Source: Planctomycetota bacterium (GTDB taxonomy: Bacteria > Planctomycetota > Planctomycetia > Gemmatales > Gemmataceae). From it: DNA of 45,384 nucleotides. The notes under the pieces were generated by a model. That model was not told the DNA's origin. It searched no databases and worked only from the letters and a program-made list of their open reading frames with translations. Of the stretch, positions 7,997 to 22,894 are shown piece after piece. The first letter of the stretch is position 1; each line of letters starts with the position of its first letter. The stretch covers positions 4,792-50,175 of the forward strand of contig JAKBCS010000019.1 in NCBI GenBank assembly GCA_021807595.1, written 5' to 3'. Position numbers and translations under genes: made by a program.

Positions 7997-8779
7997 TTAG
8001 CCGATCTCTTCCTCCACCAAGCGGCGTGCGAACGACGCGCCCAGAATCGTTCCCATTTTGCGTCCGCCGGTGGCCAACCAGGTACGGCCGGCGACTCTCT
8101 CGAAAAAGGGACCGCCCTTCGTGTACGGACGGCGGCCCCACAGACGCACGCTCGGTTCGCTCAGTCCCATCCTCTCCGCCCGACGCAACGACAGACGCTC
8201 GTGTTCCTCGGTGTAATCGCGCTCCGCCGTGCCGTCGCTGAAGTACGTCGTTCCCGGAGCGCGGACGAATGCGATTGCCTGTCTACCGTCCTCGAAGCGC
8301 CGCGTTCGACCCGCCCGTTCGCCGGGATAGACGAAAGCTGCGCCCGCCTTGCCGATTACCTCCAGTCCAGGTAGGAATTGTGGGGACCAAACGCCGGCGG
8401 CGATATAGATCCAGCCTTCGTAGCGCCGGCCGCCCGCTTCGAGCCAGCCGTCGCCGACCGTCTCTACGCTTTGACGAATGGGCGACGGTTCGAGAATCAT
8501 CGAGGGGGGAACAAATAAATGAGAATCCCTGTTACCCTCGTCGCCTTCCAGCGAGAGCGCGCAGATGGGATAGAGTTGCTCCAACAAAGGCAGGGCGCGA
8601 TGATAGTGTCGATGGAGTTTGCGCCCCGCCCAGCTTTCTTTGAACAGACCGGCGGCGGCGGAAGAGGCGGCACCGCTTCGACTCGAATCGAACACGATGG
8701 CCTCTATGCCGCGCGCGCGCGCACAAGCGGCAGCCAGCGAACCGAACAAGCCACCGCCTACCACGAACAGGGAGGGCAT
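7997..8779 (-). CDS. FAD-dependent oxidoreductase (DAO-like)
   Basis: A 260-residue flavoprotein with an N-terminal dinucleotide-binding motif VVGGGLFGSLAAACAR (GxGxxG type, residues 5-20), an acidic strand end (VFDSS) and a C-terminal segment RTWLATGGRKMGTILGAS resembling the second FAD-contact region of the D-amino-acid oxidase/glycine oxidase fold. It is shorter than the usual 360-400 residues, so the substrate domain is reduced. The ATG at 8779 starts directly at the Rossmann strand with GAGG upstream; the open frame extends to 8911 but that part has no domain features. The oxidised substrate cannot be inferred. Confidence 0.75.
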   Translation of the reverse strand: MPSLFVVGGGLFGSLAAACARARGIEAIVFDSSRSGAASSAAAGLFKESWAGRKLHRHYHRALPLLEQLYPICALSLEGDEGNRDSHLFVPPSMILEPSPIRQSVETVGDGWLEAGGRRYEGWIYIAAGVWSPQFLPGLEVIGKAGAAFVYPGERAGRTRRFEDGRQAIAFVRAPGTTYFSDGTAERDYTEEHERLSLRRAERMGLSEPSVRLWGRRPYTKGGPFFERVAGRTWLATGGRKMGTILGASFARRLVEEEIG

Positions 8780-13308: not shown

Positions 13309-16300
13309 TTACCTCTCCGCCTGCGAAGCGCGCAGGACGCGCGCTTCCACTTCCTCGCCCTCGAAGAGCAGTTCCTCGCCGTGTTGGCGGATCCAATCGA
13401 CCAGGCGGCGCATGAAGCCGAGTCCGGCGGCGGCGGCTTCTACGTCGAGAACCTGCGGCGATGCCTCCAACAGAGGACGCGGCAAGCAGACGATGGATTT
13501 GCAACGCGCCCGCGTTAAAGCCACGTTGAGGCGGTTCAAACCGTAGATGAACTCGGCTTCGCGCAGGGCGAACTCTGGATCGGAGACGCCGTAGCTGACA
13601 AGTACGGCGTCGGCTTCCTGGCCCTGCATCTTGTCCACGGTATCGACGAACGGCAGGCTGCTCCACGCGCGCTGTTTCGCCAATTCCTGTTGAATGGCCC
13701 GAATCTGCGCGTGATGCGGGCTAACGATGAACACGCCGCGGCGGAAGAAGGCGGCATCGTCGGCGTAGGCGCGGCCGGAAGCACCGCGCAGACCGTCCCG
13801 CAGCGCCACCGTCAGTTGCGCGACGAGATCGGCCTCGATCGGATTGGCGCGCGAAGCGCGGATGCCGTCGAGGACGACGACGACCAACGGATAATGCGGA
13901 TCGAGACAGGAGGAGACGAGCGGATCGAGTTCGCGTTTGGGTTTGAAAGCGAGTCGGCGTTGGGCCACTTCGCTGCTGCCGCACTTGTAGCGTGGACCGT
14001 AGAGCAGGTGCGCGGCGCAGCCGGTCAATACGTCGTTCATGCGGAAGTTTTCGAGCAGCTGACGGACAATTCGGCTCTCCGTAATCTGTTGTGTTTGCCG
14101 AGGACACACGGCCTCGAAGATGGAGCGATGCAACAGCGGTTCGCCGGGCGACGCATCGGGATAGACACCGGCGACGATAGGCGGCAATTGCAGGTGATCG
14201 CCGGCCAGCACCAGCCGTCCGCCGTCGCCGCTCAGATACACGGCGATCGCCGACTCCGGCACGCGAACTTGAGACGCCTCGTCTACGACTACGAGATCGA
14301 ACGACGGCAGATCGAGGCGTTTTTTGACGCAGGAATAGACCGTGGCACCGAGGACGACTTGGGCTTCGTCCCGCAGCCAACCGCCCAGATCGTTCTCCGC
14401 CACGACATCGACACCGGGATTGACGCTCTGCCAATTTTTCGCCTTGCCGAGTAGAAAATGAGTGGAATTCGCTTTGCGGCACTCGGCGATTTTGGTCAGC
14501 AAATTCTCGATGGCGGCGTGGGTGAACGCTGTCACCAAGACGCGGAAGGGCAAGCCGGCGCACTTGTAAGCCGAGGCCAGGGCGACGATGGTGGCGGCGA
14601 GGAAATGCGTCTTGCCCGTGCCCGGCGGCCCCCAGACTGCCGTGGCGCGCTGGCCGCATATCGTATGAAACGCTTCGAGCTGGCTGGGCGTGAAGCCGAG
14701 TCGATCCGCTCCGCCCCTCGCCGCCGTTCGCACTTTCGCAGGTAGGGGCAAGGGTACGGCGGCCTCTTCGGGATGGCGTAACAGCTGGGCATAGAAGCCG
14801 GCGGGACCATCGCCGTCGTGGGTGGCTCGATCCAGCTCTTCGAGAAACTTCACGAGCGGATCGGTCGTGAAATCGGTGAAGCGTTGGTAGAGCAGAAAGC
14901 GCTCGCCGGCCGTGGGCGGATTATTCTTGAACTTGCGCGCGTACTCCAAGCGAAGGCGCGCGCTGTCGCCGACGGCATGAATGGCGGTGACGCCGACGAT
15001 GGCGCGATGCGGGCTGTCGGGACCGCCGTGTACCTTATTGCGATACCAATAGTCGGCATACTCGACTTGAGCGCGGCGGCCGTCCTCGTCGTCGCGCACT
15101 AGCAGCCACGCGGGAAAGCCACTCGTTTCCGGCTCGACGACCAGATTACCGATAATTTCCATCTCATTTGCGTTGATTGCCTTCAATTCGACGACTTGTC
15201 CGAGCAACACCTGAGTGGCCCGCGCTTCGGCGCGCGATTCGCGGACGGCCAAGCAGTTCAACAAACTCTCGTAGCGGACGAAAAAGGCGAGGCGCGACAG
15301 AATCGGTTCGCGGATGCCGGCTCCCCTCGGCAGCGCGAAGCGCGGCGGCCAGGCGAATAGCTGCGAGGCGGCGCGCTCGCGCACCGAACGCAACAGCGCG
15401 GCCACGGCGAATAGATAAAGCCGCGACTGATGCCGAATCTCGTCGAGATTCTCGCTCTTGCCCGCATACCAGGCCGCGTGCAACGCCTCGGCCCGCAACC
15501 CGTGGCCCAGAGGAAAGTGATAGAAATCGCGCCGCGTATAACGGAACGGACTGCCCAAGGCTTCCAACATCTCCGGCAGCGTGTAGCTAACTTCGACCGG
15601 CAGAGCGAGCAATCGGCTCACGGCGTTTTGCAGGACGACGACGGGATAGGCCACTTCGCTGCCGGGATGGCTCGCCGCGTGCAATAGCTCCGGCCCCTGA
15701 AAATGAAAGAGCAACGCCATCGCTTTTTCGGCCAAATCGGGCACGGTCAAGGCATCGAGCAGGGCGGCGAACAAGAGCGCCCGTTCGTCTTCGGTGTGGA
15801 CGTAGACTTGCAAACTCAACTTGTCCTTCCATTCCGCCCGGGCTTCGTTGTAGGCATGGACGCGATGGAACAGATCGTCGAGTCGTTCGATGAAATGCCG
15901 ACGCACCTCGACAGCAAGGTCCGGCTTGTCGGCCAACCAGACGCACGGTTGCGGTTTGCCTTCGCCGTCGGTCAATTCTCGCGCCGTCATCGCCGAGAAC
16001 ACGGCGCGGCGCACATCGTCGCGTCCGGTGACGTGCAGACCGGCGAGATAGATCGTTTGCCCCAACGGTTCCTTTTGCAGCGTCAGAAACACGGCGAGAT
16101 TCTCACCGCGCGGCAGATCCGGCGAAGTTGCGCCATGGAGTTGTGGCTCTTGCAATTCCAGCGCGGCAACGCGCACGGCCAGGCGATGTCGCTGTCCCGC
16201 CAACGAGTCGCAACGATCCAGCGCTTCATCGGCATCGGCGCGCTTCAGGAACTTGCCCAGTTCCGTCAACGTGCAGACACCCGCCTCGTCGCGTAGATGA

Positions 16301-17121
16301 CGCTTGCCGTAGGTCGTCAACTGCACCAAGCGCGATACGTCGTCGGTGCGGCGCATCTCTTCGCGGCACGAATCGAAGAACTCGCACCATTCGCAACGGT
16401 CGTACAGATGCCAATGCGCCTCGCGCGCCTCGCCCTGTAAAATGCGGCTCAAATCGTTGCGGAGGAATCCCTCCAAATGCGGTCGAAAATCGCCCAGATT
16501 GAAGATCTCCGGTTCCTCTTGCTTCCCCAGCCAGACGGCTCCGCATTCGAGATCGACGCCGGCATCAATCCCCTCGGCCTCAAGCAACGCTTGCAATTCC
16601 AGAGCGTAAAAGAGAATCTGCACTCGATGCGTCAGCTTCAGTGCCTCGCCGCGTTTCAGGTCGATAATGCGAATCCTGCGCTTGCCGTCTTCGCCCGACA
16701 GAATCGAGAGCAGATCGGGATGATTTTCGCTGACGAGAATCCCGTGCGGATCGATGCCGTAATCCTCGTAGAAGCGCGGCGGCGGCGCAAGGGTCGGCTG
16801 ATAGAGAAAACGTCCGGCCGGTTCGCGCCGCAGATGACGCAGCGTCGCGGCCAACGGCAGCCGCCGCGTGTGCAACTCTCCCGCCCCCGGTGCAACGACG
16901 ACCTTTCCTTTCAGCATCCGCTCGACGACTTCGCGTTCCCACTGAAAGCCGCTGGCCAAAATCGATTCGACGAGCGGGCTGTTGTCGAAAGCCGGCTTGG
17001 GAATGCCCTGTCGCTTGCGTTCCAGCGGCGTGGCAGAGGTGTAATAGAGAAAGCGTTCGCAATCGTGAAAGAAATAGCGAGCGATGGTGGATGGACTGAC
17101 TCGAAACGGCGGCGCGGCCAT
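13309..17121 (-). CDS. Dna2-like Fe-S nuclease fused to superfamily 1 helicase
   Basis: A 1270-residue DNA-processing enzyme. The N-terminal part carries a Cas4/AddB/Dna2-type nuclease: HPDLLSIL (D136), IIDLKRG (D154, K156) and the QILFYALEL helix (Q168, Y172). Four cysteines in the characteristic spacing, one at residue 21 (HDCERFLYY) and three at 243, 246 and 252 (CEWCEFFDSC), would hold a 4Fe-4S cluster. The C-terminal part is an SF1B helicase: Walker A GPPGTGKT (about 831), DEAS box (947), AGDHLQLPPIV, NFRMN, VDKMQGQEAD and NVALTRAR. The start at 17121 (MAAPPFRVSPS) lies directly before the nuclease fold; the longer frame to 17202 is less likely. Probable role: DNA repair or defence. Confidence 0.9.
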   Translation of the reverse strand: MAAPPFRVSPSTIARYFFHDCERFLYYTSATPLERKRQGIPKPAFDNSPLVESILASGFQWEREVVERMLKGKVVVAPGAGELHTRRLPLAATLRHLRREPAGRFLYQPTLAPPPRFYEDYGIDPHGILVSENHPDLLSILSGEDGKRRIRIIDLKRGEALKLTHRVQILFYALELQALLEAEGIDAGVDLECGAVWLGKQEEPEIFNLGDFRPHLEGFLRNDLSRILQGEAREAHWHLYDRCEWCEFFDSCREEMRRTDDVSRLVQLTTYGKRHLRDEAGVCTLTELGKFLKRADADEALDRCDSLAGQRHRLAVRVAALELQEPQLHGATSPDLPRGENLAVFLTLQKEPLGQTIYLAGLHVTGRDDVRRAVFSAMTARELTDGEGKPQPCVWLADKPDLAVEVRRHFIERLDDLFHRVHAYNEARAEWKDKLSLQVYVHTEDERALLFAALLDALTVPDLAEKAMALLFHFQGPELLHAASHPGSEVAYPVVVLQNAVSRLLALPVEVSYTLPEMLEALGSPFRYTRRDFYHFPLGHGLRAEALHAAWYAGKSENLDEIRHQSRLYLFAVAALLRSVRERAASQLFAWPPRFALPRGAGIREPILSRLAFFVRYESLLNCLAVRESRAEARATQVLLGQVVELKAINANEMEIIGNLVVEPETSGFPAWLLVRDDEDGRRAQVEYADYWYRNKVHGGPDSPHRAIVGVTAIHAVGDSARLRLEYARKFKNNPPTAGERFLLYQRFTDFTTDPLVKFLEELDRATHDGDGPAGFYAQLLRHPEEAAVPLPLPAKVRTAARGGADRLGFTPSQLEAFHTICGQRATAVWGPPGTGKTHFLAATIVALASAYKCAGLPFRVLVTAFTHAAIENLLTKIAECRKANSTHFLLGKAKNWQSVNPGVDVVAENDLGGWLRDEAQVVLGATVYSCVKKRLDLPSFDLVVVDEASQVRVPESAIAVYLSGDGGRLVLAGDHLQLPPIVAGVYPDASPGEPLLHRSIFEAVCPRQTQQITESRIVRQLLENFRMNDVLTGCAAHLLYGPRYKCGSSEVAQRRLAFKPKRELDPLVSSCLDPHYPLVVVVLDGIRASRANPIEADLVAQLTVALRDGLRGASGRAYADDAAFFRRGVFIVSPHHAQIRAIQQELAKQRAWSSLPFVDTVDKMQGQEADAVLVSYGVSDPEFALREAEFIYGLNRLNVALTRARCKSIVCLPRPLLEASPQVLDVEAAAAGLGFMRRLVDWIRQHGEELLFEGEEVEARVLRASQAER

Positions 17122-17416
17122 CAATTGATCTCGGTGCGAAGAGGAGCGGAGTCTCTCGGCTATCTTAATCGTGAGATCCACGCCTGTCGAGAGGCACCGC
17201 ACTCGCCCATCGCGGGGCGATTTCGCTCACGAATCGAGACGTCGAGAAGCCCGCGAGCGGATGGACCGTGGCGAGCCTGCCATCCATGAGAGAATTATCG
17301 ACCCATCGAGCGATGCTTCACGAGGGGCGCTTCTCTGTAGAGCCGTTGCCGAAACGGTGGGAGAATCGGTAAGGTTACTCTTTCGTCTCGTTTCACCCGA
17401 TGGGAATGGCGGGAAT

Positions 17417-18234: not shown

Positions 18235-19983
18235 ATGCCGCTTTTTAGCCGAACGCGAGGGAGAAAGATTCTCTCGTTTCTCTTAGGTTCACTCCTCTTC
18301 GGTCTAGCCTATACGCAGCCGCGGTTGTATTACTCAAATCAGCACCAGTATTTCTTGCACGGAGCGGCGGCCGCGGGAGAGGGATTTCTTTCGCACGATT
18401 GGTTGGCCAACACCGCCGATCCGACTCCGGTATTCAGTACCCTCGTCGCCTGGACCTTGCGCTACGGTCATTCCTTTTTGTTCTATGGGTATTATCTCAT
18501 TATCCTCGGCATCTATCTCCATGCGCTGATGGGCATTTTCGACGCGCTCGGCGACAGTCTACAAAGCCCCTCTCCTCCCGTTCACAGGGGGAGAGGGGTT
18601 GGGGTGAAGGGGTGGACTTTTTCTAGGATATTCGCCCCCTCAACCCCTCTCCCTCGAATAGAGGGGGGAGGGGAAAGGACGGACTCGCAGCAGAGCCGTG
18701 AATCCGCAAAGCGAGCGCGCTGGGCGTTTCTCACGTTCGTCGTCGTTGTCCATTCCGGCCTCTTGCGTTGGAGTTCGGTGCGGGTCTTCGGCGTCGATTA
18801 TCCCTGGTATTTCCAAGCCGGAGTCGCCAATCAATACATCCTTGGCGCGGGATTGCAACCGTCGGTGTTCGGCGTATGGTTGGTATTGTCCGTATCCATT
18901 TTCCTCAAGAATAGACCGTATCTTGCCGTGACATGGGCGGCTCTATCGGGAGTAATACACTCGACGTATCTCTTGAGTGCCGCGCTGTTGACGCTGTCTT
19001 ATTTGTATCTACTCCTACGCGCCGGTCGGCGTCGAGATGCCGCGCTCGTGGGATTGTGGGCGCTGCTCGTCGTTTCTCCCGTCGTGGTCTACAACGCCGT
19101 CTCCTTCGCACCGTCTTCTCCCCAAGCATTTGCCGAGGCCCAGCATCTTTTGGCCCACGTTCGCATCCCCCATCATACCCAAGTAGATCGCTGGCTCGAC
19201 GGCTTGGCCTGGATGCAGCTCGGATGGATTCTTTGGGCGATGTTCTTGGTGCGAAAGAGTCGATTGTTCGTCGTATTGTCCGTGTGCTTCGTCGGTTCGC
19301 TGGCTTTGACACTGGTGCAAGTCGCCACCGGCAACGATACCCTGGCGCTGCTGTTCCCTTGGCGCACGTCGTCCTTTCTCGTGCCCATTGCTACCGCAGT
19401 TATCCTGACGCAAACACTAAATCATTTCGCATTCCGTTCCTATCCGGCAATACAATATATTTATGGTTTCGTTCTCATTGTTTTCGTGACGGGGGGAGTC
19501 GTCATCAGTTATTTCGGTCTCGGTTATCGTACCAATACACAAGAGACAAGACTGCTGGAATATATCCGCGATCATAAAACCGCTGAAGACGTGTATCTTC
19601 TGCCTGTGGAACTGCCCAAACTCACATCTGGCCAGCGCGGGGCGGCTTCGCTCAACTTCACGCCGCCACCGCAACGAAGCACTCAGAAGCAAAATATCTC
19701 AGTCGATTTACAGCAGTTTCGCTTGTTTACCGGCGCGCCCATCTACATCGACTTCAAGTCGATCCCCTATAAGGATGTCGAAGTGCTGGAATGGCGTCAC
19801 CGTGTATTGTGGACTCATGGACTATACGAAGAGCGCAATTGGAACGAGCATGAGATTGCGACGGAATTGTCGCGACGCAAAATCACGCACATCGTCGCCA
19901 CCGCCGACCGCGACATAAGCTGCGCCGCCCTAGAGTTGGTGTGTAAAGATCCCAGCTATCGTTTGTATCGCGTGCGAAAATAG
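18235..19983 (+). CDS. Polytopic membrane protein, possibly DUF6798-type
   Basis: A 582-residue membrane protein with about ten hydrophobic segments (first at residues 14-27) and a soluble C-terminal domain of some 140 residues after YFGLGYRTN. That domain contains VYLLPVELPKL, FRLFTGAPIYIDFKSIPYKD and THIVATADRD, and resembles what I remember as DUF6798; this is recollection, not a search. No catalytic motif stands out; the layout recalls glycosyltransferase-like membrane proteins. The start is uncertain: a TTG at 18202 overlaps the preceding stop, while the ATG at 18235 precedes the first helix; neither has a good ribosome site. Residues about 111-150 are encoded by an inserted palindromic element. 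Confidence 0.75.
   Translation: MPLFSRTRGRKILSFLLGSLLFGLAYTQPRLYYSNQHQYFLHGAAAAGEGFLSHDWLANTADPTPVFSTLVAWTLRYGHSFLFYGYYLIILGIYLHALMGIFDALGDSLQSPSPPVHRGRGVGVKGWTFSRIFAPSTPLPRIEGGGERTDSQQSRESAKRARWAFLTFVVVVHSGLLRWSSVRVFGVDYPWYFQAGVANQYILGAGLQPSVFGVWLVLSVSIFLKNRPYLAVTWAALSGVIHSTYLLSAALLTLSYLYLLLRAGRRRDAALVGLWALLVVSPVVVYNAVSFAPSSPQAFAEAQHLLAHVRIPHHTQVDRWLDGLAWMQLGWILWAMFLVRKSRLFVVLSVCFVGSLALTLVQVATGNDTLALLFPWRTSSFLVPIATAVILTQTLNHFAFRSYPAIQYIYGFVLIVFVTGGVVISYFGLGYRTNTQETRLLEYIRDHKTAEDVYLLPVELPKLTSGQRGAASLNFTPPPQRSTQKQNISVDLQQFRLFTGAPIYIDFKSIPYKDVEVLEWRHRVLWTHGLYEERNWNEHEIATELSRRKITHIVATADRDISCAALELVCKDPSYRLYRVRK
18565..18682. repeat. In-frame palindromic dispersed element
   Basis: About 118 bp made of two G/C-tract hairpins and long-range complementarity. 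The left hairpin pairs CCCCTCTCC (18567-18575) with GGAGAGGGG (18590-18598). The right arm (about 18641-18673) folds CCCCTCTCCCTC on GAGGGGGGAGGGG with one bulge. The segment GGGAGAGGGGTTGGGG (18589 on) is largely complementary to CCCCTCAACCCCTCTCCC (18636 on). It reads through in frame inside a membrane-protein gene, giving a Pro/Arg/Gly-rich stretch between membrane segments. The look is that of a MITE/REP-like planctomycete repeat; copy number cannot be seen here. Confidence 0.65.
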
Positions 19984-19993
19984 GTGTTCGGGT

Positions 19994-20011
19994 CGAAGTT
20001 CTTTAACTTCG
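19994..20011. terminator. Hairpin between convergent genes
   Basis: A perfect 7-bp stem, CGAAGTT (19994-20000) with AACTTCG (20005-20011), loop CTTT. It lies between the plus-strand membrane-protein stop and the minus-strand reverse-transcriptase stop, and overlaps the latter stop codon. No T-run follows on either strand, so it is a weak bidirectional terminator or only a stability hairpin. Confidence 0.35.
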
Positions 20012-20941
20012 GGGGCGATTGGAGATCATGGTCTGGTATCCCAGGTATCCCGCGAGCCGTTCGACATCGTGCGCGGCCCAGCTGCGTTTCAGAGTATTCA
20101 TCGTCCGCCGCATGCGTTCGGGGAGACGAACCCCGCCGTGTCGAGTCAAGATGGCTCCGGTAATCTCCGGCTCATCGCGGCGATGATACAGCCGCCAACC
20201 TTTTTTCCGGTGCAACGTATAGCCGAATTCGTGCAGTACAGAACGCACACCATTCTCAAAATCCGAAGTCGGGCCTGGCCAATGTCGCCAACTAAACACC
20301 ATATCGTCGCAGTATCGGGTGTAGCGCGCGCCGGCCTGGCGCGCACGACGGAACAGCCGCTCATCTAATTCTCGATTTATCGAGTTGCTCAACGCCGGGC
20401 TAGTCGGCGCGCCTTGCGGAAGTCCGCCCCGATCGGTCGTCAACAGCGTCAGCAACCGGGCGAGGTCGGCATCGACGCGCTCGCGCCACCAGTCATCAAC
20501 CCGGGCCGCTTGCGTGGTGGGAAAAAAGTCCTCAATGTCGGCGGCGATGAGAAATTCAGCGCCGGCATGAGGCCAAACGTGATCGGCGATCGACTTTTTC
20601 TTGCAGTAGGCAACCGCTGCTGGATGAGGCTTTTCCTCCTTGAAATAGAAGGCGAGTATCCAGCGCTGAATCGACTTGAGTTTGACATCCGGCTCGACGA
20701 GGTCGCGCAGTCCACCGTCCTTTTTCGGCTTCGTGAAATGACGATAATGAAAATGAGGATGCAGGGAGGAGGTCGCAGCCACTTCTTGAAAAACCGCTTG
20801 CGTAAGACCAACTTGAACGAGCAGGTCATCCCACTCGCTCTTGAGGGCGAGGGACGGCGTAATTCGGAATCGACTCCTCCCCGTGTAGCGTCCGCCGGTC
20901 AAGGTGCGAAGCAGCGGTGCAAAGGCGGCGAGCGGATTCAC
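20003..20941 (-). CDS. Retron-like reverse transcriptase
   Basis: A 312-residue reverse transcriptase, the size of retron enzymes, with no maturase, endonuclease or protease domain. RT blocks in order are HFTKPKKDGGLRDLVEPD (residues 68-85), the motif-A aspartate D135 in ADIEDFFPTT, GLPQGAPTSPALSN (173-186), the active-site YCDD (210-213, Cys where YADD is usual), a basic motif HRKKGWRLYHR (244-254), and EITGAILTR (259-267), matching the VTG region of retron RTs. The retron NAxxH position reads HVWPH (121-125), a degenerate form keeping the histidine. It starts at GTG, overlapping the SPFH stop by 4 bp. Expected activity: RNA-templated cDNA synthesis from a dedicated RNA. Confidence 0.9.
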   Translation of the reverse strand: MNPLAAFAPLLRTLTGGRYTGRSRFRITPSLALKSEWDDLLVQVGLTQAVFQEVAATSSLHPHFHYRHFTKPKKDGGLRDLVEPDVKLKSIQRWILAFYFKEEKPHPAAVAYCKKKSIADHVWPHAGAEFLIAADIEDFFPTTQAARVDDWWRERVDADLARLLTLLTTDRGGLPQGAPTSPALSNSINRELDERLFRRARQAGARYTRYCDDMVFSWRHWPGPTSDFENGVRSVLHEFGYTLHRKKGWRLYHRRDEPEITGAILTRHGGVRLPERMRRTMNTLKRSWAAHDVERLAGYLGYQTMISNRPRS

Positions 20942-21672
20942 GAACTGCCCTCCTTACGGCGCGGGACGAACAGATCGGCCAAGTTGGGCAGCAACACGAC
21001 ATTGCCGCTTTTGCCCGCAAGATTGATTAGTGCCTCGATTTCTTGCAGGCGAGCGACTTCGGGATTCTCGGACAGAATCTTGGCGGTGTTCGCGCGCGCC
21101 CGCGCCGCCGCTACTTCGTGACGCGCCCGGACCAGTTCTGCACGACCGGCGCGATCGGCTTCGACTTCCAGCATCATCACCTGCCGAACCTCGCCTGGCA
21201 GGACAATGTCGCGGATGCCGACTCGACTTACTTCGATGCCGTAGCGTTTAGCTGGCTCCGCAGACAATTGAAGCAATTCGGCGGCCAACTCGCCTCGGTT
21301 GTCGAGAATCCGATCGAGAGTCCGGCTGGCGATGACATCGCGCAGAGCGAGTTGTAGTTCTTGATGGAGTTGCTCGTCGTAGTTCTCCACGGCGTTGATG
21401 GCTCGAACGGGATCGACGACGCGATACTGAGCCACCAAGGACACGCGCACTTCGATGCGATCCGCCGTCAAGATTCCCTGGCCGGCGACGATGTGACTCA
21501 TTTCACGCAGGCTCACCTTGGCCACATCCACCGCTTCGCCAACCCAGAAGCGATAGCGACCCGGTTCCAGCACCTTCTCCAGCTTGCCCTCGCGGTATAG
21601 AAGGCCACGCTCGTACTCGTAAATGGTGATTGCTTTGCAGAGCCAGAACCTGTGTTTCATGGGGGCCAGCAT
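20938..21672 (-). CDS. SPFH/band-7 (slipin-like) protein
   Basis: A 244-residue SPFH-domain protein. The core runs from about residue 14 (ITIYEYERGLLYREGKLE) through LTADRIEVRVSLVAQYRVVDP (69-88) to YGIEVSRVGIRDIVLPGEVRQ (144-164), the slipin/prohibitin signature, followed by a charged Ala/Arg/Glu coiled-coil tail. Unlike typical slipins it lacks an N-terminal membrane hairpin, so it is probably soluble or peripherally attached and oligomeric. The ATG at 21672 has AGAGGGG seven bases upstream; the open frame continues to 21951, but that part overlaps a structured region. It overlaps the reverse transcriptase gene (GTGA), so the two form one translational unit. Confidence 0.88.
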   Translation of the reverse strand: MLAPMKHRFWLCKAITIYEYERGLLYREGKLEKVLEPGRYRFWVGEAVDVAKVSLREMSHIVAGQGILTADRIEVRVSLVAQYRVVDPVRAINAVENYDEQLHQELQLALRDVIASRTLDRILDNRGELAAELLQLSAEPAKRYGIEVSRVGIRDIVLPGEVRQVMMLEVEADRAGRAELVRARHEVAAARARANTAKILSENPEVARLQEIEALINLAGKSGNVVLLPNLADLFVPRRKEGSS

Positions 21673-21700
21673 CGATATTCCCCTCTGCGCGATTCCAATT

Positions 21701-21863
21701 CCGGGCTGTTTCGGACACCCTCGCCTTACTAAGGGGGAGCCGAGGTTGACACCGTCTTTGTCCGTGAAGCCGAGACCTCGCGAACGCGGTCGGTGGGTAT
21801 CTCCTGGGCTGCAAGCCCGATTCAGACGCCCACCCAAGGGTGGGGAGCGCCGGAACAGCCCGG
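21701..21863 (-). ncRNA. Structured element upstream of the SPFH-RT operon (candidate msr-msd-like RNA)
   Basis: A 163-bp segment bounded by 14-bp inverted repeats (21701-21714 and 21850-21863, one mismatch). Read on the minus strand, after the first repeat come two tight hairpins, CCCACCC/GGGTGGG (21829-21844) and GGGCT/AGCCC (21806-21818), then a region with several shorter complementary stretches, e.g. CCTT/AAGG inside CCTCG/CGAGG. The second repeat ends 29 bp before the SPFH start codon. Layout and size resemble a retron RNA with a1/a2 ends. The alternative is a dispersed MITE-like repeat. On the plus strand the mismatch becomes a G-U pair, which slightly argues against the minus-strand RNA. 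Confidence 0.35.
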
Positions 21864-21874
21864 CCTGGACCAGT

Positions 21875-21897
21875 CCCTTCCGCCGAAGGCGGAAGGG
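21875..21897. repeat. Perfect GC-rich hairpin
   Basis: A 10-bp perfect stem, CCCTTCCGCC (21875-21884) with GGCGGAAGGG (21888-21897), loop GAA. It lies 12 bp outside the 163-bp structured element upstream of the SPFH-RT operon. It may be part of the same transcript leader or an independent stability hairpin; no T-run follows on either side. The rest of 21898-22048 contains no gene I can support. Confidence 0.55.
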
Positions 21898-22048
21898 GAC
21901 ACGGATCACCCCATGCGCGGTACGCACGAATCGAACCGGTGTGCGCCGCAAGTGCTGGATGTACTTTATGTGAGGTCGAGGAAAGCGACAATCGGGATCC
22001 GCACTGTAAGCGAGTATGCTGCGGACTCCGAGAGCATAATCGGCACGG

Positions 22049-22819
22049 TCAGTCGGGAAGTGAGGGAGTCAATTCATCCCGCCAGCGTTTCGGCACGGCG
22101 GCGAAGGCAGTGCGATAAGTTTCTTCCAGCGGCACAAGTACATAGACCTCCGCTTCCAGGAATAACGGCATCGACGGCAATTCGTCTTCCACCGCCACCG
22201 GCTCGATGAAGGCGCGTTGGACATAGCCGGCCGAGTAACTCGCCAAGGTCAGCGGTTTGTCCGGCGGGAGTTGAAAGGCATCGTCGTCGATTTCGGACCA
22301 GATGGCGGCATGAATGCCTTGCGGATCGCGCGGTCCCGGAGGGAACAGATCCAGCACCAATAAATGGATGCCTGCTTCGAGGAACTCCACGGCTTTCTCG
22401 ACGAAAGCCCGCAAGGCATGACGAGTGCCCTTGTTGCCGGGAGAGACGATTTCGACCAGAGCCACAACCCGATCGTCGCTGACGTGGCGGATAGCGATGC
22501 GGTTTCGTTTTCGGGCTTGGATTTCCGCTTCGGCAGAGGCGGTGAAGCGCACGCGGGGCGGAGCGACGGCCAAGGCAATGCCGCCATTCGTCGAAGGCGT
22601 CTCGGAGGGACCGTTGCCGCCGCCATTCATCGAAGCGGCCGCGTCTCGTCCGAGCGTCAGCACATCGGGATGGAGTCCTCCGGCAACCTGTTCCGCCAAG
22701 GCATAGTAATCCGGTGGCAGAACGCCCTGGTTCAAGGCGTGCTTGATGGTGAAAATCCAATCGTGATGGAAGTCGTGAAAGATCCCTGCGGCGACGCGCG
22801 TCCAATCGTGAATCGGCAA
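22049..22819 (-). CDS. DUF4058 family protein
   Basis: A 256-residue protein beginning MPIHDWTRVAAGIFHDFHHDWI, the characteristic start of DUF4058 proteins, which are abundant in planctomycetes and cyanobacteria. Other recognisable parts are LALAVAPP-like text before RVRFTA, the strand IAIRHVSDDRVVALVEIVSPGNK and the segment GIHLLVLDLFPPGPRDP. The family resembles Uma2-like proteins with a restriction-endonuclease-type fold, but the biochemical role is unknown. A TATAAT box lies 43 bp upstream (22862-22867 on the minus strand). Length is typical for the family. Confidence 0.85.
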   Translation of the reverse strand: MPIHDWTRVAAGIFHDFHHDWIFTIKHALNQGVLPPDYYALAEQVAGGLHPDVLTLGRDAAASMNGGGNGPSETPSTNGGIALAVAPPRVRFTASAEAEIQARKRNRIAIRHVSDDRVVALVEIVSPGNKGTRHALRAFVEKAVEFLEAGIHLLVLDLFPPGPRDPQGIHAAIWSEIDDDAFQLPPDKPLTLASYSAGYVQRAFIEPVAVEDELPSMPLFLEAEVYVLVPLEETYRTAFAAVPKRWRDELTPSLPD

Positions 22820-22861
22820 GGTGGTTCCTCCCTTTGTGGAGACGCGATACGGCCTATGCGG

Positions 22862-22867
22862 ATTATA
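22862..22867 (-). promoter_or_regulatory. Possible -10 box (TATAAT) for the DUF4058 gene
   Basis: A perfect TATAAT on the minus strand, 43 bp before the DUF4058 start. No convincing -35 hexamer is found at 16-18 bp (nearest TGAATA), so this rests on the -10 alone. Confidence 0.3.
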
Positions 22868-22894
22868 TCCGCTCGGCGTCTATTTATTCACCGC

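Follow-up and report, generated by a model that had tools for sequence, protein, structure and literature searches.

Our study of a 45,384-nucleotide stretch of DNA from a Planctomycetota bacterium of the family Gemmataceae (assembly GCA_021807595.1, contig JAKBCS010000019.1, positions 4,792 to 50,175 of the forward strand; the whole stretch is referred to below as the window) revealed what looks like a new type of retron: a three-part cassette made up of a structured RNA, a gene for a soluble SPFH/stomatin-like protein and a gene for a retron reverse transcriptase (RT). Gene order and overlap suggest that the three are transcribed as a single unit. We put at roughly 60% the probability that the cassette is a previously undescribed retron type by its architecture, with the SPFH protein as its probable effector. 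This reading follows from the presence of an RT of the retron class, an adjacent RNA with long complementary ends and a partner gene, together with the lack of correspondence to any described type.

Results

Layout of the cassette

The features of the cassette, in window coordinates, are:

19984..22048, no strand assigned: discrete accessory cassette, lacking in a congener whose flanks are otherwise closely similar
21963..21991, minus strand: putative promoter of the RNA and operon, TTGTCG ... CATAAAGT, weak and tentatively read by eye
21701..21960, minus strand: conserved structured non-coding RNA, 5' end approximate, without a match in Rfam
21917..21949, minus strand: SL1, 5' hairpin of the RNA, GCGGCGC...GUGCGUACCGC, with a conserved U(A/U) bulge, from covariation
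21875..21897, minus strand: SL2, perfect 10-bp hairpin and msd-like candidate, from the complementarity of its own arms
21701..21863, minus strand: 3' domain of the RNA (163 nt), whose long-range, a1/a2-like closing stem has its arms at 21850-21863 and 21701-21714
21738..21810, minus strand: P4, two covarying helices within the 3' domain (outer strands 21803-21810 and 21738-21745)
20938..21672, minus strand: SPFH/Band_7 (stomatin/slipin-like) gene, 244 aa, without a transmembrane segment, from Pfam, profile, fold and hydropathy
20003..20941, minus strand: retron-clade RT gene, 312 aa, catalytic YCDD, from profiles, tree and fold

A first-pass annotation of this DNA had proposed that an SPFH gene and a retron-sized RT without a maturase domain share one operon, with the RT starting inside the SPFH stop codon. 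Pfam and the gene map confirm this arrangement: the SPFH protein matches Band_7 (E=2.7e-30), the RT matches RVT_1 only (1.8e-11) with no maturase domain seen, and the GTG start codon of the RT shares 4 nt with the SPFH stop, as GTGA. A 337-aa SPFH frame reaching 21951 was rejected as overlong, the start favoured by homologues being the ATG at 21672, which is accompanied by the Shine-Dalgarno-like sequence AGAGGGG. On reading the sequences, promoter-like elements similar to that of the window were also seen ahead of the RNA in relatives. A consensus scan of the window for promoters and terminators found nothing, the putative TTGTCG promoter being missed too.

Class of the reverse transcriptase

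The best matches of the window RT among the PADLOC, NCBIfam (St85) and PDB profiles are retron RTs, its closest solved relatives by profile being Ec86, Kva2, Ec67, Ec83 and Ec78. A fold search with the predicted structure (predicted local distance difference test score, pLDDT, of 88) returned retron RTs for all of the top 18 matches, ahead of the RTs of group II introns, defence-associated reverse transcriptases (DRTs) and diversity-generating retroelements (DGRs); membership in any of these three classes was rejected in view of the weaker profile and fold matches and the lack of a maturase domain. In a tree of 103 RTs, the 20 that are linked to an SPFH gene form one clade (100 in the Shimodaira-Hasegawa-like approximate likelihood ratio test, SH-aLRT) inside the retron RTs, and this clade groups (SH-aLRT 99) with Planctomycetota RTs that PADLOC rates nearest to type XIII. 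The RT is thus placed among retrons by profiles, tree and fold alike, and not in a class without an RNA partner, a placement that would have refuted the proposal of the first-pass annotation.

Within the PADLOC classification, the window RT scores 169 bits to III-A, 167 to XIII and 154 to II-A, and the RT of one Chloroflexota locus (L174) scores 197 to 'other', against 344 bits for a genuine III-A RT. Since these class scores are low and undecided, the SPFH-linked RT fits no described PADLOC class, and membership in a known retron type was rejected on account of the low and equal scores to several classes. The catalytic YxDD is present in all SPFH-linked RTs, as YCDD, YADD or YGDD. The retron motif NAxxH (region X) is intact in L027, L029, L030, L031, L165 and L173; in the window RT it reads HVWPH, with the His invariant, and the VTG of region Y reads ITG, so that the retron motifs are present in the clade and partly retained in the window. 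The RT of L169 stands apart from the other members by an insertion in the GY..KGW region and by a long, acidic extension of its C-terminus.

Structure of the RNA

The RNA upstream of the SPFH gene is about 265 nt long, with its 5' end at about 21960, and is organized in the order SL1, SL2 and closed 3' domain. The structured 163-bp segment proposed earlier corresponds exactly to 21701-21863 and covaries, but it represents only the 3' part of an RNA that is bigger and better defined than had been suggested, and that is conserved with the RT and SPFH genes across relatives. By at least SL1, the RNA is recognised upstream of SPFH in 20/20 loci, and the 3' domain in 19; features first seen in 10 loci held in the 10 found later.

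The 9-bp stem of SL1 (consensus GCGGCGC...GYGUWCCGC) is formed in 178 of 180 pairs (98.9% of cells) across the 20 loci, versus 159 with the arms shuffled, and compensatory changes occur in 6 of its 9 pairs. Even the AT-rich L165 retains SL1, with compensatory changes, although its RNA has no recognisable P4. SL2 follows 10-20 nt downstream as a near-perfect hairpin, mostly of 9-17 bp, whose sequence is hypervariable and unrelated between most loci: its own arms are 97% complementary, versus 45% for arms taken across loci. This comparison was made arm against arm because the MAFFT alignment of all loci mis-registered SL2; the automatic pick is shorter than the folded hairpin in L027 and doubtful in L165. 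SL2 is a plausible candidate for the msd hairpin.

The 3' domain of the window is closed by two complementary arms of 14 nt. In 19/19 loci with a recognised 3' domain there is such a long-range stem, of 9-22 pairs, with one arm immediately behind SL2 and the other immediately ahead of the SPFH start (in L027 the arm picked by score differs from that seen in its relatives). Inside it, the P4 helices flank a conserved internal loop, GGAUACC/UCAA (AGAUACC/UCAA in the window), and are paired in 96% of cells versus 64% when shuffled, with changes on both sides in 12 of 13 pairs; register-shift controls drop to 24-45% paired. Covariation across relatives is decisive for this structure, whereas single-sequence folding of the window RNA is weak evidence, being only mildly significant (z -2.1 to -2.5).

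A search of Rfam gave no match to the RNA. A covariance model trained on the Planctomycetota RNAs alone recovers each of the five from Chloroflexota, at E-values of 3e-10 to 3e-3. In 19 other RT loci its single hit has E=0.54, and the occurrence of this RNA beside other retron RTs was accordingly rejected. With the first RNA model, one site per genome was found, only in genomes with the SPFH-RT pair (41 genomes searched).

The SPFH protein

The SPFH protein matches the stomatin profile (E=1e-37), and its predicted fold (pLDDT 81) matches stomatin, HflK/C, prohibitin, erlin and flotillin and, more weakly, the major vault protein (template modelling score, TM, of 0.57; root mean square deviation, rmsd, of about 11). 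A hydropathy scan of 19 SPFH sequences of the family detected no hydrophobic stretch of membrane level, and hence no N-terminal membrane segment, in any of them; a GN..xLP segment near the C-terminus is conserved. By homology, the protein would be a soluble stomatin-like subunit without a membrane anchor that probably forms rings or domes. At E<=1e-10 it is the sole such SPFH protein in its own genome, as is the case in 2/6 other genomes checked, and no PADLOC family matches it. In the most divergent pair locus, L165, several SPFH domains stand in tandem within a 539-aa open frame.

Recurrence and distribution of the cassette

Searches of about 1,750 genomes with tblastn and profiles identified the SPFH-RT pair in 20, which belong to several families of Planctomycetota (the window, L024, L025, L026, L027-L031 and L165-L170) and to the class Anaerolineae of Chloroflexota (L171-L175). 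The pair is therefore not private to the window genome. In all 20 loci the SPFH gene stands beside the RT in the same order and with the matched RNA. Every RT found that reaches 286 bits or more against the family profile is SPFH-linked; the next RT, at 245 bits, and those below it are not. Beyond close relatives the flanking genes differ, and only the RNA, SPFH and RT are conserved across the 20 loci. The distances of the two proteins are correlated (Mantel r=0.905), to which common descent alone could contribute. Both genes are maintained, since synonymous substitutions predominate in each when close pairs are compared (SPFH, for example, shows 95 vs 6 single-change codons, and RT 109 vs 31).

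The distribution is sporadic (1/4 genomes of the genus, 10/102 in the order), and the Chloroflexota RTs fall at two places among those of Planctomycetota; this nesting suggests horizontal transfer. The family profile found no SPFH gene adjoining the RTs of 80 viral contigs. Phage RT matches are at best 31% identical; plasmid RT matches were not exhaustively checked for SPFH.

The flanks of the cassette, 18711-19932 and 22049-22893, align to adjoining stretches of a congener (G003:C213, locus L211) with an identity of 80-92%, mostly 88-92%. Window positions 19933-22048 are missing there, the stops of the flanking genes lying about 45 bp apart, and the absent ~2.07 kb holds just the RNA, SPFH and RT, with no integrase. 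The unit gained or lost between the congeners is thus the RNA together with the two genes.

Several features were observed outside the cassette. Next to it lies a DUF4058 gene (22049-22819) whose family has undergone a great expansion in the congener, with 17 matches in G003. A GC-rich repeat at 18552-18710 lies in frame within a DUF6798 gene and has CCCTCAACCCCTCTCCC-type arms in inverted orientation, at 18589-18605 and 18637-18653. L211 lacks it at this place, but a similar copy occurs there at 8161-8274, in the interval that separates the DUF4058 and ABC-permease genes of L211. At 13309-17202, a 1297-aa protein has a C-terminal helicase part that partially matches PADLOC DpdJ and MkoA.

Discussion

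The nearest known retrons to the cassette are those with type XIII-like RTs, according to the tree, and type II-A Ec86, the best solved match. It has in common with retrons the class and fold of its RT, an adjacent structured RNA with long complementary ends and a partner gene in the operon, and its order of RNA, partner gene and RT occurs in known retrons such as Ec86. It differs in that no PADLOC class takes in its RT (167-197 bits to several of them), its partner is an SPFH protein and its RNA has two extra 5' hairpins and no Rfam family. With the stomatin/slipin family (human stomatin, P. horikoshii PH1511, E. coli QmcA, HflK/C), the SPFH protein shares the SPFH core, the long helices that follow and the C-terminal GN..xLP; unlike them, it lacks the N-terminal membrane hairpin and is encoded with an RT and an RNA, and no recurrent NfeD-like partner was found in the cassette flanks. 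DRT systems and those of the unknown groups (UG), such as DRT2 and DRT9, likewise combine an RT with a neighbouring structured RNA, but the matches of the window RT to DRTs are much weaker than those to retrons, and it does not fall in a UG/DRT class. The idea of a retron-like RT, a soluble SPFH protein and an RNA in one operon therefore stands, because the RT belongs to the retron clade, 20 loci have the pair and the RNA covaries. The first-pass annotation knew of no described retron type with a soluble SPFH effector, and neither does PADLOC have a class for this RT. According to a 2026 preprint on Kva2 (PMC13405049), sixteen subtypes of retron have been distinguished, whose effectors vary from ATPases to HEPN RNases and transmembrane proteins; the passages concerned name no SPFH protein. 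The literature searched, outside of which lay the classification of Mestre et al. 2020 with its possible brief mention, describes no retron paired with an SPFH protein.

The cassette is most likely a defence module. The RT would bind the RNA and reverse-transcribe part of it, and the resulting RT-RNA/DNA complex would hold or position the SPFH protein. By analogy with known retrons, a phage that disturbs the RNA/DNA part may then cause the SPFH protein to be released or re-assembled, and this protein would arrest the infected cell by acting on its membrane or on some other large target. The production of cDNA, phage resistance and toxicity of the SPFH protein would all be expected on this scheme. 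Several observations weigh against this scheme. The branching-G motif of retrons was not recognised on reading the aligned RNAs, and SL1 and SL2 sit outside the a1/a2-like stem, unlike the textbook order a1-msr-msd-a2. The SPFH protein is more conserved than the RT (mean identity 57% vs 43%), unlike what would be expected of a fast-evolving toxin. Lastly, the neighbour genes tested at other loci are mostly housekeeping genes, with no convincing defence gene among them (the kinase beside L166 gave generic kinase matches only).

The stronger purifying selection on SPFH than on RT would also suit a protein that is not a toxin at all but forms a soluble ring or dome in which the RT-RNA/DNA complex is housed or anchored, a distantly vault-like structural ribonucleoprotein compartment. 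The lack of a membrane segment in all 19 proteins scanned, the resemblance of the fold to SPFH proteins that build rings and domes and the conserved GN..xLP segment are in line with this, and the shoulder of the vault is itself SPFH-like. The match to the major vault protein is weak, however, and comes from a single-subunit model, and to our knowledge every precedent with a known retron partner uses that partner as effector; we consider such a scaffold unlikely, though not far-fetched. Its combination with defence, in which a vault-like SPFH ring or dome encloses or gates the RT-RNA/DNA complex and its phage-triggered opening or membrane docking is the immune output, is a still more speculative idea. 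If true, it would couple a membrane or cage machine to reverse transcription in a new way, and the retron RNA involved would be of a new, bipartite kind.

The housekeeping neighbours raise the alternative that the system derives from a retron but serves a housekeeping or stress function, such as membrane or protein quality control via SPFH, and not one in phage defence; the regulation of membrane proteases, as by HflK/C, is a general function of SPFH proteins. The patchy presence of the cassette, its presence or absence between congeners and the suggested horizontal transfer fit an accessory or defence element better, and we doubt that this is its role. It is more improbable that the RNA is a cis-regulatory leader, a protein-binding autoregulatory element of the SPFH-RT operon rather than a template of the RT. 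Its position directly before the SPFH ribosome-binding site, the conserved GGAUACC/UCAA loop, typical of a binding site, and the unrecognised branching G would agree with such a leader, whereas the hypervariable perfect hairpin and the 9-22 bp closing stem fit retron-type RNAs better, no terminator-like site was found in the window and relatives of the RT clade work with templates encoded next to them. That an SPFH gene merely happens to precede an RT, in favour of which there is nothing beyond the single window, is refuted by 20 loci in two phyla with the same order and a matched RNA.

SPFH proteins build some of the largest membrane rings and domes known, and their activities are often unclear; retrons, for their part, serve as DNA-writing tools. 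An RT-RNA pair that has been carried with one specific SPFH protein through two phyla offers a compact and genetically tractable route to the function of SPFH assemblies, and an SPFH retron would add both a new class of effector and a new RNA architecture to the retrons.
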